From the NCBI GenBank assembly GCA_022787165.1, contig JALFVL010000026.1:1-64000 (forward strand): DNA of 64,000 bases. The letters run 5' to 3'. Every line of letters begins with the position of its first letter. The stretch's first letter is position 1. A program made the translations under genes and the position numbers. Below are positions 576-6,627 of this stretch, in pieces. This DNA is from Clostridiales bacterium (GTDB lineage Bacteria > Bacillota > Clostridia > Christensenellales > Aristaeellaceae). A model generated the notes under the pieces. It did not search any database. It was given only the letters and a program-made list of their open reading frames with translations, and was not told the origin of the DNA.

Positions 576-1643
576 TCAGGACGCCTTTTCCTGCGTCCCG
601 GCGCGCTTTACGGCGAAGACCGCGTCATCCAGCTCGCCCGTGCGGCGGGCCACAATCGCCGCGGCGATGGCGGCGGAGGAAACGTTGGTCAGCGTGCGCA
701 TCATGTCGGAGATCGTGTTGATGGGCACCAGCAGCACGACCGCGCCGATGGGCAGGCCCACCGTGCCAAAGAGCGCGATGGCGGATACGACCGCGATGCC
801 CGGCACGCCGGCGCTGCCCACGGAGAGGAACCACGCCGTAAGCGCGAGCACGGCATACTGCTGGGGGCCCCACGAAAGCCCTGCGGCGTTTACATAGAAG
901 ACCGCCAGCAGCACGGGCCAGACTGCCGTGCAGCCGGGCATGCCGATGGTTGTGCCCAGCGAGGCCGTGAAGTCCGCGACGCGGTCGCTGACGCCCACGC
1001 GCTCGCGCAGGGCGGATATCGTCACAGGCAGCGTGCCGACGCTCGCCTGCGTCGTGAACGCCGTCACCTGCGCCGGGAAGATCTTGCGGAAGAAGCGCAC
1101 GGGGCTCAGCCTGGCCTGCGTGGCGACCAGCAGCGCCCCAAGCCCGTAGGTGAACACAAAGCAGACGCCGTAGATCACGGCGACCAGCAGCAGAAGCTGC
1201 CTGAGCGCCTCCCGGCTCGTCAGCAGGCTGCTTGCCGAGCCCGCGATCAGCGCGAGCACGGCATAGGGCGTCAGCTCCATGAAGAAATCCGTGACCGCGA
1301 AGACGATCTTGCGAAGCGCCTCCACGCCCCGGCAGAACGGCGCGACGGCCTCCGCCCCCTCCTGACGCTCGACAGCGAGGCAGGCGATGGACAGGGCCAG
1401 CGCGATGAGGATGATGCCCGGCACGTTGTTGCTCACGATGTCGCCCAGCACGTTGGACGGGAAGAGTCCGCGCAGGACCTCTGTGAACGGGCGCGTCGTC
1501 CCGGCATAGGCGGAGAGCGTGCTCTCCTCCAGCGTGTCAATCTGCGCAAAGACCGAGGAGGCCGTGTCGCCCAGGTGCATGCCAAGGCCCACGGCCAGGC
1601 TCAGCAGCACGGCCAGCGCCAGAATGATCTGTAGTTTCATCAT
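576..1643 (-). CDS. Cystine-type (TcyP-like) dicarboxylate/amino acid:cation symporter, N-terminally short
   Basis: This is a membrane symporter of the DAACS family, closest by recalled motifs to the L-cystine carrier TcyP. The blocks TTQASVGTLPVTI, SLGTTIGMPGCTAVWP, GLPIGAVVLLVP and NTISDMMRTLTNVS match the TcyP hairpin and substrate-binding segments. The product is about 355 aa, while TcyP is about 460 aa. The first hydrophobic segment aligns with TM3, so TM1-TM2 of the scaffold domain appear to be missing. The start is the ATG at 1643 or 1640, with GAGGG 5-8 bases upstream. It is the last gene of the unit with the secreted protein at 1712-2221 and the Cys/Met leader at 2478. The family is clear; the substrate is inferred. 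Confidence 0.8.
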   Translation of the reverse strand: MMKLQIILALAVLLSLAVGLGMHLGDTASSVFAQIDTLEESTLSAYAGTTRPFTEVLRGLFPSNVLGDIVSNNVPGIILIALALSIACLAVERQEGAEAVAPFCRGVEALRKIVFAVTDFFMELTPYAVLALIAGSASSLLTSREALRQLLLLVAVIYGVCFVFTYGLGALLVATQARLSPVRFFRKIFPAQVTAFTTQASVGTLPVTISALRERVGVSDRVADFTASLGTTIGMPGCTAVWPVLLAVFYVNAAGLSWGPQQYAVLALTAWFLSVGSAGVPGIAVVSAIALFGTVGLPIGAVVLLVPINTISDMMRTLTNVSSAAIAAAIVARRTGELDDAVFAVKRAGTQEKAS

Positions 1644-1711: not shown

Positions 1712-2221
1712 TCAGCACAGCGGAACGACAACCGTTCCCTGTCCGCTCTCCGGCTCGGCCTTCGCGGGAGCGCTTTCCTCCGACGGCGCATAGCGCAGCT
1801 CGAGCCAGACCAGATCCTCGTCATTGGGCAGCTGCTCAAGCTTGTCGCCCGGGAAATAGGCATCCGCCGCGGCACGGGCGTCGGCGATCTTCTGACGGAT
1901 CTCCTCGTCCGTGATTCCGTCCGCCGTCCTGCGCTGGTTGGCGACCACCGCCGTCTTGATCGCAAGACGCACATATTCCGCCTTGGCGCTCTCCAGCTCA
2001 TCGAGATTTTCCACGCGGCTCTCCAGGTTCAGGTTGGGATCAAGCCTCGCCACGGCGGCATCCGCCTCGTCAAGGGCGGCGCGGCTCTCTTCGTCATAGC
2101 GCACCTGGCCGATCGCCTCGATGCTCGCCGAAGCGGTGCGGACTGCATAGGCCGCAGAGGCCGCGCTCAGGCCGGCAAGCGCCGCGGCGGCGGATAGCAG
2201 GATGATCGTCAGCTTCTTCAC
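1712..2221 (-). CDS. Secreted protein with a single surface-type helical module
   Basis: The 169-aa product starts at GTG (2221) with AAGGAGG 7 bases upstream. Residues 1-25 are a signal peptide with an Ala-rich cleavage region. Residues about 33-90 (from SIEAIGQVRYDEESRAALD) resemble the IG-x-V-x-Y-x-x-x-S helical modules found in repeats of clostridial surface proteins; that resemblance is by memory, not by search. The C-terminus is acidic and proline-rich and ends in a cysteine. It lies 69 bases upstream of the TcyP-like symporter and 200 bases downstream of the leader terminator, so it is probably co-transcribed with the symporter. The molecular function is unknown. Confidence 0.75.
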   Translation of the reverse strand: MKKLTIILLSAAAALAGLSAASAAYAVRTASASIEAIGQVRYDEESRAALDEADAAVARLDPNLNLESRVENLDELESAKAEYVRLAIKTAVVANQRRTADGITDEEIRQKIADARAAADAYFPGDKLEQLPNDEDLVWLELRYAPSEESAPAKAEPESGQGTVVVPLC

Positions 2222-2418
2222 AGAAATTCCTCCTTGTGTGCATCAAACGGAAGCGGAATCGGTGTCTCCGCCCGACAGCGGTCCGTCGCCCGAGTCGCAC
2301 CGGCGTGTCTCATCTGGCTTTCCTTCTTTCTTGAATCCGCCGGCATGACGCCGGCCTCATTTGTGTCCGTCCTTCCTGCCGTGCCGCGCAAAAGACGCTG
2401 CCCCGCAGGAAGATTTCC

Positions 2419-2461
2419 ATAAGAAAACGGGACGAAGTGCTTTGCATCGCCTCGTCCCGTT
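2419..2461 (-). terminator. Leader terminator (candidate attenuator)
   Basis: A perfect 10-bp stem (arms 2426-2435 and 2452-2461, 16-nt loop) is followed on the minus strand by TTTTCTTAT. It begins 17 bases after the stop codon of the 36-codon leader ORF and precedes the secreted protein and symporter genes. That is the arrangement of a transcription attenuator. Confidence 0.8.
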
Positions 2462-2477
2462 CTTCTCTCTTCAACGC

Positions 2478-2588
2478 TTATGCGCGTATGCCGCAGCGCA
2501 AAAAGACCTTCGGCAAAGACGGGAACCGAAAGCTGCACATACACATACACATACACATACACAGGGCCTTGTACGCCATCGCAGTCAT
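2478..2588 (-). CDS. 36-aa leader peptide with tandem Cys-Met codons
   Basis: This short ORF starts at ATG 2588 with GGGAGG nine bases upstream and encodes 36 residues beginning MTAMAYKAL. Codons 10-18 read Cys-Met-Cys-Met-Cys-Met-Cys-Met-Cys (TGT ATG four times, then TGC), and Cys32 follows near the end. It lies between a consensus promoter (2638-2665) and a strong terminator (2426-2461). The next genes are a secreted protein and a cystine-type symporter. I infer that ribosome stalling at the Cys/Met run governs termination. Leader peptides of this design are known for amino-acid operons; this one I do not recognise. Another reading is a standalone small protein or an sRNA. Confidence 0.65.
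   Translation of the reverse strand: MTAMAYKALCMCMCMCMCSFRFPSLPKVFLRCGIRA
2537..2563. repeat. Hexanucleotide tandem repeat inside the leader ORF
   Basis: Four and a half perfect copies of TGTATG (minus strand) form the Cys-Met codon run. The unit is six bases, so copy-number change would alter the number of Cys-Met pairs without changing frame. Confidence 0.9.
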
Positions 2589-2637
2589 GGTTTTCGTCCT
2601 CCCATCTTCGTTTATTTTTCCTATCGGATTTATAGGT

Positions 2638-2665
2638 ATTATAGTACACCAGACGCCGTTGTCAA
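2638..2665 (-). promoter_or_regulatory. Consensus promoter of the leader/symporter unit
   Basis: Minus-strand -35 TTGACA (2665-2660), 16-bp spacer, -10 TATAAT (2643-2638). Both boxes are perfect consensus. The predicted start is near 2631, about 43 bases before the leader ATG. Confidence 0.85.
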
Positions 2666-4127: not shown

Positions 4128-4859
4128 TCAGAGCATGCTGCTCAGGAAGCTTTTCAGCCGCGCGGATTTCGGCGCGCCCAGCACCTCCTGCGGCGTGCCC
4201 TGCTCGCAGATCACGCCGCCGTCCATGAAGACGACCTGATGAGCGACCGCGCGGGCAAAGCCCATCTCGTGCGTGACGACGAGCATCGTCAGGCCCTCCT
4301 GCGCGAGGTTCTGCATGACGGCGAGCACCTCGCCAACCATCTCCGGGTCAAGCGCGCTCGTCGGCTCGTCAAAGAGAATGACCTCCGGATCCATCGCCAG
4401 CGCGCGGGCAATCGCGACGCGCTGCTTCTGTCCGCCGGAGAGCTGGCGCGGCATGGCGCTGACATAGGCGTCCATGCCGACCTTCTTAAGGTACTTGAGC
4501 GCGCTGCGCTCGCTCTCCTCGCGCGAACGCCTCAAGACCTTCATCTGCCCGGCCACGCAGTTGCCCAGCACATCCATGTTGCCAAAGAGATTGAACTGCT
4601 GAAACACCATGCCGACCCTGGCGTGGTAGCGCGGCAGGTTGACCCGGCCCTTGAGAATGTCCTCGCCGTGGTAGAGGATTTCGCCCGCGTCAGGCGTCTC
4701 CAGCAGGTTGATGCAGCGCAGCAGCGTCGATTTGCCCGAGCCGGAGGAGCCAATGATGCAGGTCACCTCGCCCTTCTTCGCGGCAAAATCGATGTCCCGC
4801 AGCACCTCGTGGCTGCCAAACGCCTTGCGCAAACCGCGAACCTCGATCACGCTTTCCAC
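4128..4859 (-). CDS. Polar amino-acid ABC transporter ATP-binding protein (GlnQ/HisP type)
   Basis: This cytoplasmic ATPase powers amino-acid uptake. The 243 aa include Walker [10 protein letters not shown] (about residue 37), the Q-loop [12 protein letters not shown] typical of the GlnQ/HisP branch, signature [15 protein letters not shown], Walker [15 protein letters not shown] and the H-loop VVTHEMGFA. It starts at GTG 4859 with AGGAGGAGGTGA upstream and overlaps the end of the permease gene by 13 bases, so the two are translationally coupled. It is the third gene of the binding protein-permease-ATPase operon. Confidence 0.93.
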
Positions 4860-5689
4860 GACCGGCTCACCTCCTCCTCGTTTTCCCGGCTGACAACGAT
4901 CTCCGCGCGGCTGTCGCTCTGCGAGCCGTGAATGACGTAGTTGTCCGGACCGTCCATCCTGCGCTCCACCCAGCGCAGCACGCGGCTGACCGTCAGCGTC
5001 AGAATCAGGTAGATCACCGCGATGATGAAATAGACCTCAAAGTAGCGATAGTACGCGCCCGCCGCGCTCTTGGCCTGGAAGAACAGCTCCGAGACGGAGA
5101 TGACGTTGAGCACGGAGGAATCCTTGATGTTGACGATCAGCTCATTGCCCACGGAGGGCAGGATGTTGCGGATCGCCTGCGGCAGCACGACCGCCGTCAT
5201 CGTCTGCCAGTGGGTCATGCCGATGGCGTGCGCGGCCTCAAACTGGCCCTTGTCAATCGAGATGATGCCGCCGCGGATGATCTCCGCCATGTACGCGCCG
5301 GTGTTGATGGAGATGATGAAGATTGCGGCAAACGTCGTATCCATGTACATGCCCGCGTACTGCGCGCCGTAGTAGATGACGACCGCCTGCACGATCATCG
5401 GCGTGCCGCGGAAGACCTGGATATACGCGCCCAGCAGCATCTGCGCCAGATGCAGCAGCGTGCCGCGCGCGGCGCAGAGCGCGCCCTCCAGCGCGCCGTG
5501 GTGGCCGGGGCGCTCCGGCGCGGGCGAAAACGAGCGCACGATGGCGACCAGCAGTCCGATGACAAAGCCGAAGAGCGTGCCCGTCAGCGCGATGAGCAGG
5601 GTCATGCCCGTGCCGCGCAGGAAGAGCGTGCCATACTTCTGCAGCAGGAAGGCAACCCAGCCGAAGAAGGAAGTGCTTGCTGTTGGCAT
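4847..5689 (-). CDS. Polar amino-acid ABC transporter permease (HisM/GlnP type)
   Basis: This membrane subunit forms the transport channel. The N-terminal TM ([20 protein letters not shown]) is followed by [29 protein letters not shown] and the EAA loop [28 protein letters not shown] (quoted in parts: [14 protein letters not shown]), all diagnostic of the HisM/GlnP family. A hydrophilic insertion rich in Pro, Gly and His (about residues 50-80) after TM1 is longer than in most homologues. It overlaps the ATPase gene by 13 bases and follows the binding protein by 137 bases. Confidence 0.92.
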
Positions 5690-5790
5690 GTGATCTCCTC
5701 TCTCTTGGTGAAGAAAGGGCTGCCGGAGAGATTCCGACAGTCCGTAGGGAATCCTGAGTTGTGCAGAGCCTCCGGTTCGGCGGATTCAAA

Positions 5791-5813
5791 CCCGTCCGGA
5801 AGCGGAAGACGGG
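5791..5813 (-). terminator. Weak hairpin between binding protein and permease
   Basis: A 6-bp stem (5791-5796 with 5808-5813) is followed on the minus strand by TTTG only. It could cause partial termination or protect the 3' end of the binding-protein mRNA, favouring its excess over the permease. This is inference from position. Confidence 0.3.
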
Positions 5814-5826
5814 CTCACCGCGCCGG

Positions 5827-6627
5827 TTATTCGCTCAGCGGCTGCGCGGCAACCGCCGCGTCCATGATCGCGTTGCGCTCCTCGCTGGTGATTCCGGCGA
5901 GAATTTCGTTGATCTTCTCCTTGAGCTCGCTGCCCTGACGGATACCCACGGCGATTTCCGCGTCCTCCGGGGCAACCTCAAAGCCTTCGCCCTCAGCGAA
6001 GCTCAGGAAGGTCAGGTCGGGGTTCGAGCTCGTCGCGGAGACGGCGCCCGGCCGGTCGGCGATGTATCCGTCAATCGCGCCGGAGCTGACGGCGACGATC
6101 ATCGTCGGGAACGTATCCTGCGCGGGCATCTTGACGACGCCCGGAATCTGGTCGATCATCTCATAGTGGAACGTGCTCATCTGGCCGGTGATCTTCGCGC
6201 CCGCCAGGTCGGCAAGGCTCGTCGCCGCGGCAAACGGGCTGTCCTTGCGCACGACGACGGTCAGCTCCGTGACGTAGTAGGCATCGGTAAAGTCGATGGT
6301 CAGCTTGCGCTCCGCAGTCGGGCTCATGCCCGCGATGATCACGTCGATGTTGCCCGAGAGCAGGGCCGGGGTCAGACCATCCCACTCCGTCTTCACGATC
6401 TCCAGATCCATGCCCAGCCTGTCCGCGATGATTTTCGCGATGCGCACGTCATAGCCGTCCGCATAGCCGCCCGCGGCGATTGCCACGGCATCCTCGCTCG
6501 CCTCGCTCTGCGTCCAGTTGTAGGGCGCATAGTTGCATTCCATACCCACGCGAAGGGTCTGCGCCGCGCCCAGCGACGCCATGCAAGCCAGCGCAAGCGC
6601 CAGCAGAATCGTCATGAGTTTCTTCAT
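5827..6627 (-). CDS. Amino-acid ABC transporter substrate-binding protein (SBP_bac_3)
   Basis: This exported receptor captures an amino acid for the ABC transporter below it. The 266 aa begin with a signal peptide (residues 1-22), followed by LRVGMECNYAPYNWTQ, the classic family-3 opening strand, and YDVRIAKIIADRLGMDLEIV. NIDVIIAGMSPTAERKLTID is the hallmark 'D-x-I-x-A-G-M-x-x-T-x-x-R' block. Cys15 lies in ALAC, a poor lipobox, so anchoring is uncertain. The gene starts at ATG 6627 with AAAGGAGG upstream and is the first gene of the operon. The specific amino acid cannot be read from sequence. Confidence 0.93.
   Translation of the reverse strand: MKKLMTILLALALACMASLGAAQTLRVGMECNYAPYNWTQSEASEDAVAIAAGGYADGYDVRIAKIIADRLGMDLEIVKTEWDGLTPALLSGNIDVIIAGMSPTAERKLTIDFTDAYYVTELTVVVRKDSPFAAATSLADLAGAKITGQMSTFHYEMIDQIPGVVKMPAQDTFPTMIVAVSSGAIDGYIADRPGAVSATSSNPDLTFLSFAEGEGFEVAPEDAEIAVGIRQGSELKEKINEILAGITSEERNAIMDAAVAAQPLSE

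Follow-up and report, generated by a model that had tools for sequence, protein, structure and literature searches.

Does the short Cys/Met-rich ORF that precedes a putative cystine-type symporter gene in this DNA act as the leader of a transcription attenuator? We refer to the whole stretch that was analysed, 64,000 nucleotides in length, as the window. The elements on which the initial annotation had built this proposal, namely a promoter, the sequence GGGAGG, a 36-codon Cys/Met ORF, a terminator, a secreted-looking protein and a symporter, are all located on the minus strand as claimed, and the features of the locus are as follows.

2638..2665, minus strand: promoter TTGACA-16-TATAAT (TTGACA at 2665-2660, TATAAT at 2643-2638; 12/12 matches)
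2620..2636, no strand assigned: 17-bp palindrome CCTATAAATCCGATAGG, immediately 3′ of the -10 box, with the pattern CCTAYNNNNNNNRTAGG
2598..2603, minus strand: Shine-Dalgarno (SD) sequence GGGAGG of the leader ORF, from sequence
2478..2588, minus strand: predicted leader ORF of 36 codons and a stop, MTAMAYKALCMCMCMCMCSFRFPSLPKVFLRCGIRA, with counterparts in relatives
2535..2561, minus strand: putative regulatory codons 10-18, Cys-Met-Cys-Met-Cys-Met-Cys-Met-Cys, from sequence
2519..2537, minus strand: predicted antiterminator 5′ strand TGCAGCTTTCGGTTCCCGT, codons 18-24, from duplex calculation and fold
2443..2460, minus strand: predicted antiterminator 3′ strand ACGGGACGAGGCGATGCA, which is the 5′ arm and loop of the terminator, from duplex calculation and fold
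2417..2461, minus strand: intrinsic terminator AACGGGACGA...TCGTCCCGTT, stem-loop 2461-2426, tail TTCTTATGG, from the fold
1712..2221, minus strand: 169-aa secreted-looking small protein, with a GTG start, a hydrophobic N-terminus and a C-terminal Cys
576..1643, minus strand: TcyP-like SDF/DAACS symporter, N-terminally truncated, from profile match, ortholog alignment and tree

Shuffled versions of the scanned region contain a mean of 0.2 promoter sites of 12/12 quality. Codons 10-18 of the leader ORF comprise five Cys and four Met, with a sixth Cys at codon 32, and elsewhere in the window, among 608 further short ORFs, five Cys in nine codons occur in one and four in five more. Because the TGTATG run consists of 4.7 perfect copies of a 6-bp unit and could be a microsatellite, the window leader is weak evidence by itself; judged from the window alone this predicted leader stands weakly beyond chance, and it is conservation in relatives that makes it significant. 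The terminator has a predicted energy of -20.1 kcal/mol (z -4.98) and begins 16 nt past the leader stop, with TTCTT after the stem; a simple terminator scan did not list it, the loop probably being longer than that scan permits.

The symporter matches the SDF profile (387 positions) only from position 75 to 386 and starts near ortholog residue 107, with about 106 N-terminal residues absent relative to the orthologs. In a quick tree, several rows of which are partial, the 13 sequences of the symporter clade assembled below form a single clade (support 100) that shares a 31-row branch with TcyP (99), and GltP, DctA and SstT lie apart. The label TcyP-like given in the initial annotation is reasonable on this grouping, although identity to TcyP is only about 32%; that to plasmid-borne annotated L-cystine transporters is about 29%. 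Cystine is the presumed substrate. The 169-aa small protein has no above-cut-off match in Pfam or NCBIfam. We note that genes for polar amino-acid ABC transport, which resemble cystine, glutamine and arginine systems at scores below cut-off, lie near the symporter on the same strand (window positions 4128-6627).

Leaders at two kinds of transport gene

Within the genus the small protein was found in one of 29 genomes, the source genome alone, and the best match of the symporter among 40 other relatives has 32% identity. A scan of named genomes yielded 20 symporter loci, the close one of which (L036, 64% identity) belongs to an Oscillospiraceae MAG. Searches of genomes sampled from larger groups found orthologs in 2/396 genomes of the order (own genome counted), 4/46 of the G249 family (G249 counted) and 8/300 of the source genome's own family (own genome counted), giving 11 further orthologs which, with the window and L036 added, make the set of 13. 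A class-level search recovered matches in 8/391 genomes, at nine non-window places with 34-39% identity, all of them outside the clade.

Conservation in relatives, which the initial annotation had proposed as a check, is found throughout this sample: all 13 clade loci have an SD sequence and a leader ORF with 2-7 Cys and 1-6 Met codons, followed by a terminator that begins 16-50 nt past the leader stop (in L036 and L075 the terminator was chosen manually, the automatic search having picked larger hairpins). Examples of the predicted leader peptides are MKRTIKVEMCMMGEMCSYLR, MVTRIPMLLCMCQMCMRCPASMPSLRT and MNTCRCMCCRMGCFAQLCLCAHADG, and the 313 codons of the 13 leaders together include 47 for Cys and 49 for Met. 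Their Cys codons are TGT 36 times and TGC 11 times, compared with TGC 69 times and TGT nine times in window ORFs of at least 600 aa, an excess of TGT to which the AT-richness of four loci among the 13 (GC content 0.32-0.34, within a range of 0.32-0.65) contributes. The gene order is leader, symporter, small protein in 11/11 relatives with a long enough contig (L070, whose contig ends within the symporter, was left out), and is swapped in the window to leader, small protein, symporter. Two side observations concern individual relatives. L075 appears by eye to carry tandem leader modules (positions 1092-1486), one an intact Met/Cys leader and a second that looks decayed and has lost its start codon. 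Directly 3′ of the symporter and small-protein genes of L036 (6572-7990) is a gene for a protein with two GGSWCGNT motifs and a weak, below-cut-off match to Thioredoxin_9.

A search with the promoter palindrome led to a MetQ/NlpA-type lipoprotein gene preceded by a leader of its own (L089). When the MetQ-type protein was searched in 200 genomes of the family, 28 loci were found in 26 genomes, making 29 loci with the query. A Met/Cys leader followed by a terminator, for example MAKIARAMMMMRGMCMCMCSSFPCACRSL, is present at 20 of them, although in L109 the leader frame continues through the terminator and in L119 the terminator is weak; there is no Met/Cys leader at the other nine (L106, L108, L110, L113, L114, L117, L118, L120 and L133). 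Pooled over the 20 leaders, the 575 codons include 82 for Cys and 122 for Met, and we make no claim that metQ leaders differ from symporter leaders in Met content (p = 0.051). As the symporter and MetQ-type proteins are unrelated, the leader looks like a reusable device and not the inherited neighbour of one gene. By eye, a second short ORF or RNA element is also seen near metQ in L110, L113, L114, L117, L118, L123, L125, L127 and L130, persisting in loci that lack the Met/Cys leader. It ends in ..GGxxDRM or GGSRTRM (DNA such as GGCGGAAGCCG..CGAATG), has no Rfam match and is possibly another regulator.

A strict filter (SD sequence, 15-45 codons, at least two Cys, at least five Cys plus Met, and a terminator within 60 nt), devised after the leaders had been seen, passes 12/13 symporter loci, missing L070 under the 420-nt rule used for the controls, and 19/29 metQ loci, missing L109 and the nine leaderless ones. 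It passes 0/50 distant SDF loci, one of which (L025) has just 9 nt of upstream sequence, and 0/83 window ORFs of at least 150 aa, a mechanical, ATG-started set that excludes the GTG-started small-protein gene. A filter on Cys density flagged 8/50 distant SDF loci, of which the one examined (L063) looked leader-like, and missed four leaders of genus g63 with two Cys each. We note that in L063 a poly-Cys ORF (positions 1312-1443, ..MRCCCCIVWKK..) lies immediately 5′ of a distant symporter homologue (36% identity) and is without a clear terminator. Within the 13 symporter leaders, per-leader Cys counts are mostly not above those of composition-preserving shuffles; with dinucleotide shuffles, p is below 0.05 for Cys in 2/13 and for Met in 10/13. 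Judged by eye, an MCM-leader pattern matches the window leader and two seemingly unrelated places in the source genome, and many of its matches in the 29 genus genomes resemble coding sequence, several of them rubredoxin-like proteins. A distant symporter, the one match in viral contigs, has no short ORF with Cys codons in the 420 nt inspected.

Pairing between leader and terminator

In the window, codons 18-24 are predicted to form a duplex of -18.1 kcal/mol with positions 2443-2460, the 5′ arm and loop of the terminator. The pairing of TCCCGT with ACGGGA that had been suggested from inspection of the sequence recurs in the fold of a transcript stalled at Cys16, and within a longer helix. In the ribosome-free fold the SD region (2599-2610) pairs with 2514-2525 (codons 22-25), which in this model is the classical protector arrangement. 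Folds with the ribosome placed at the median Cys codon show, for 13/13 symporter leaders, the terminator 5′ arm paired to leader RNA that lies around the Cys/Met run or beyond it.

Leader strands pair better with their cognate terminator 5′ arms plus loops than in permuted combinations: with the strand starting at the first Cys in symporter leaders and mid-run in metQ leaders, permutation gave 0/5000 for all 33 leaders, 0/5000 for the symporter group and 4/5000 for the metQ group. The result for the 13 symporter leaders could come partly from their differing GC content (0.32-0.65), and nine related symporter leaders taken alone gave 278/5000. An earlier version using the last 45 nt of the leaders gave 0/5000 overall, 0/5000 for symporter leaders and 23/5000 for metQ leaders. 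The window ranks at 0.84 with the last-45-nt strand and at 0.28 with the redefined strand, the latter value needing care because the strand was redefined after the window fold had been seen. Compared with dinucleotide shuffles, the pairing is modestly better and individual leaders are rarely significant: Fisher p values are 3 × 10−5 for 13 leaders and 0.011 for six lineages with the stall at the first Cys, 2 × 10−4 and 0.018 respectively with the stall at the median Cys, and 0.0023 for the metQ leaders, of which 2/20 are below 0.05. The window leader alone gives 0.12 (first Cys) and 0.81 (median Cys).

In 13/13 leaders the 5′ arm is paired upstream more with the ribosome at the first Cys than with the ribosome at the stop, a difference that is partly built in because the stalled state frees more RNA, in a model that leaves out the RNA 5′ of the ribosome. 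The helix formed at this place varies between leaders, with GUGUG..CUGC/GCAG..CACAC in L107, AUGCG..UGCC/GGCA..CGCAU in L127 and L130, and GUGCG..UGCC/GGCA..CGCAC in L128. The leader stop lies between -14 and +24 nt of the end of the antiterminator strand in 31/33 leaders, at +41 in the window and at +63 in L089; in the window, therefore, a terminating ribosome would not cover the strand, unlike in most relatives. An antiterminator that competes with the terminator is predicted for the set of leaders, and is not individually significant in the window.

Proposed mechanism and alternative explanations

The layout of a trp-type attenuator, with an SD sequence, predicted leader ORF, regulatory codons and intrinsic terminator, is present at 13/13 symporter and 20/29 metQ loci. 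The initial annotation had interpreted the window leader as a ribosome-mediated attenuator of the trp/his type read with Cys and Met codons, and the conserved leader, codons and terminator, together with the proposed pairing in the folds, support this interpretation, which we regard as very probably correct. From the layout, its conservation, the cognate complementarity and the sulfur-gene context, all visible in the DNA, we infer translation of the leader, stalling and antitermination in response to tRNA charging. When charged Cys- and Met-tRNA are plentiful, a fast ribosome would let the terminator arms pair and RNA polymerase would stop before the transporter genes. If either tRNA were scarce, the ribosome would stall in the Cys/Met run, the alternative pairing with the ribosome-site region would be blocked, and codons 18-24, left unpaired, would base-pair with the 5′ arm of the terminator, with readthrough into the small-protein and symporter genes.

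It is possible that the class of attenuator is real and that the window copy is a decaying remnant, in an operon that has been rearranged and whose symporter has lost its N-terminal part; the copy may be decaying because the symporter is truncated and the gene order swapped, and its geometry is less favourable than that of most relatives. The N-terminal 114 aa of the L036 symporter have only weak matches elsewhere in the source genome (E-values 0.002 and 0.2), and the window symporter has a long branch (0.57) in the quick tree. Against this, the locus retains an intact promoter, leader and terminator, the symporter has an open reading frame in which the core residues are conserved in the ortholog alignment, and the antiterminator duplex is as stable as noted above. 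We consider decay of this copy unlikely, if the most serious of the alternatives, and the truncation and swapped order may stem from decay, from a genuine rearrangement or from faulty assembly.

Clusters of Met and Cys can bind metals, and a Met/Cys-rich nascent peptide might act in the exit tunnel in the manner of TnaC, arresting the ribosome in response to free Cys or Met, to redox state, or to copper or another thiophilic metal. In favour of this, 4/4 leaders of genus g63 have the motif EMC..M..MCSY in common. Between groups, however, the peptides differ almost wholly except in their Cys/Met content, a pattern more easily reconciled with the counting of codons than with a fixed peptide motif, and the identified downstream genes are for amino-acid transport and not for metals, so that we think such arrest improbable. 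A TGTATG microsatellite open in one frame by chance beside an ordinary terminator, with no attenuation, would explain the perfect repeat and the weak single-sequence statistics of the window, but is largely refuted by the relatives, whose Cys/Met leaders differ in sequence at the same place (13/13) and recur at a second gene type (20/29) with none among the filter controls (0/50 and 0/83), and we judge it very improbable indeed.

Under the preferred reading, attenuation through Cys and Met codons, some gut bacteria probably turn on sulfur amino-acid transporters via such a leader under shortage. Whether the interleaved Met and Cys codons form a dual, either-or sensor of tRNA-Met and tRNA-Cys charging, which would be the first ribosome-mediated attenuator counting Met codons as far as our searches show and would be reused at two or more types of transport gene, is in our estimate evenly balanced. 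Met is unusual in a leader sensor because AUG doubles as the start codon, and joint sensing, if true, would tie two interconvertible nutrients to one switch. Leader-peptide control is here found with sulfur amino acids, at transport genes of two kinds, and Met codons would form part of the sensor. The proposal offers a compact model, and its recognisable signature could be used to annotate uptake genes in uncultured gut bacteria.

Sulfur-gene context and known regulators

The promoter palindrome may be the operator for a sulfur repressor of the Rrf2 type (CymR/IscR-like), which would probably add control of initiation; in Bacillus subtilis, CymR represses cysK and tcyP (PMC3828012). In the window, as at three g63 loci, the pattern CCTAY-N7-RTAGG is found 3′ of the -10 box; in L072 and L073 it overlaps the -35 box. 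Six of the 13 orthologs have it exactly, with near-matches by eye in L036, L069, L075 and L076. There are 27 sites in seven genomes, and nine of the 12 loci examined are near sulfur, serine or Rrf2 genes: a cysK-type gene (L103, upstream of cysK in the source genome, with TIGR01139 above cut-off, and L102), a cysteine-desulfurase-type gene (L091 and L096), metY (L090), a metQ-type gene (L089), a serC-like gene (L097) and an Rrf2 gene (L095 and L101). L092 is ambiguous, with an amino-acid-binding-protein gene farther downstream, and the neighbours of L094 and L104 are unrelated to sulfur. Compared with a reversed control pattern the palindrome is rarer in six of seven genomes and commoner in G808 (6 versus 2), so that the argument for a sulfur regulon rests on placement. 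The gene preceding the leader in L074 encodes an O-acetylhomoserine/O-acetylserine sulfhydrylase (TIGR01326, above cut-off). We note also a Cys/Met-rich ORF (MMCSDLEAML...GRMCQPDAACTC) from L090:1584 onward that overlaps the metY start and is perhaps a translational version of the leader.

At the Rfam gathering score, no T-box, SAM or other riboswitch was found in the 13 symporter loci, window included, or in the 29 metQ loci, and a search of the window at E-values up to 10 gave sub-threshold matches only. Positions 2250-2360 appeared riboswitch-like by eye, but this candidate was dropped, having one sub-threshold opposite-strand match and two short DNA matches elsewhere. A literature search of open-licence papers recognised no methionine-codon or Met/Cys leader.

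Leader-peptide attenuation is a classical form of control. The leaders described here resemble attenuators of the trp/his/leu type in combining a short ORF that carries codons for the amino acid under control with alternative pairing, an intrinsic terminator and downstream genes for that amino acid, and differ in that Cys and Met codons are interleaved, ahead of sulfur amino-acid transport genes and in genomes that are probably Clostridia. Cys leaders of the kind found in Mycobacterium, Propionibacterium and Bifidobacterium are reportedly the subject of work by Canestrari in 2020. Such leaders have runs of Cys codons upstream of sulfur genes, as do those described here, which differ in having an intrinsic terminator and Met codons, the available part of the actinobacterial account reporting no conserved terminator and mentioning no Met codons (PMC1262725). 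By the usual description, T-boxes serve in Firmicutes where leader peptides serve in Proteobacteria (PMC2965389), although his leaders have been predicted in some Firmicutes (PMC2965389, PMC9413887). In Clostridium perfringens a Cys-specific T-box and an S-box likewise govern sulfur genes, including cyst(e)ine uptake, by premature termination; there, unlike here, the RNA itself senses tRNA or SAM and no leader ORF is involved (PMC2940859). The uORFC-8-2 motif, upstream of cysS in Rhodobacterales, likewise has a terminator after a leader ORF that contains Cys codons, and in the part of its description at hand has two tandem Cys codons with no mention of a Met run, in another phylum and at a tRNA-synthetase gene (PMC8632094); the window leader falls outside this motif, as gene and codon pattern both differ. 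Cys-only leaders have thus been published already, and the Met/Cys leader appears, as far as the literature searched shows, to be new.
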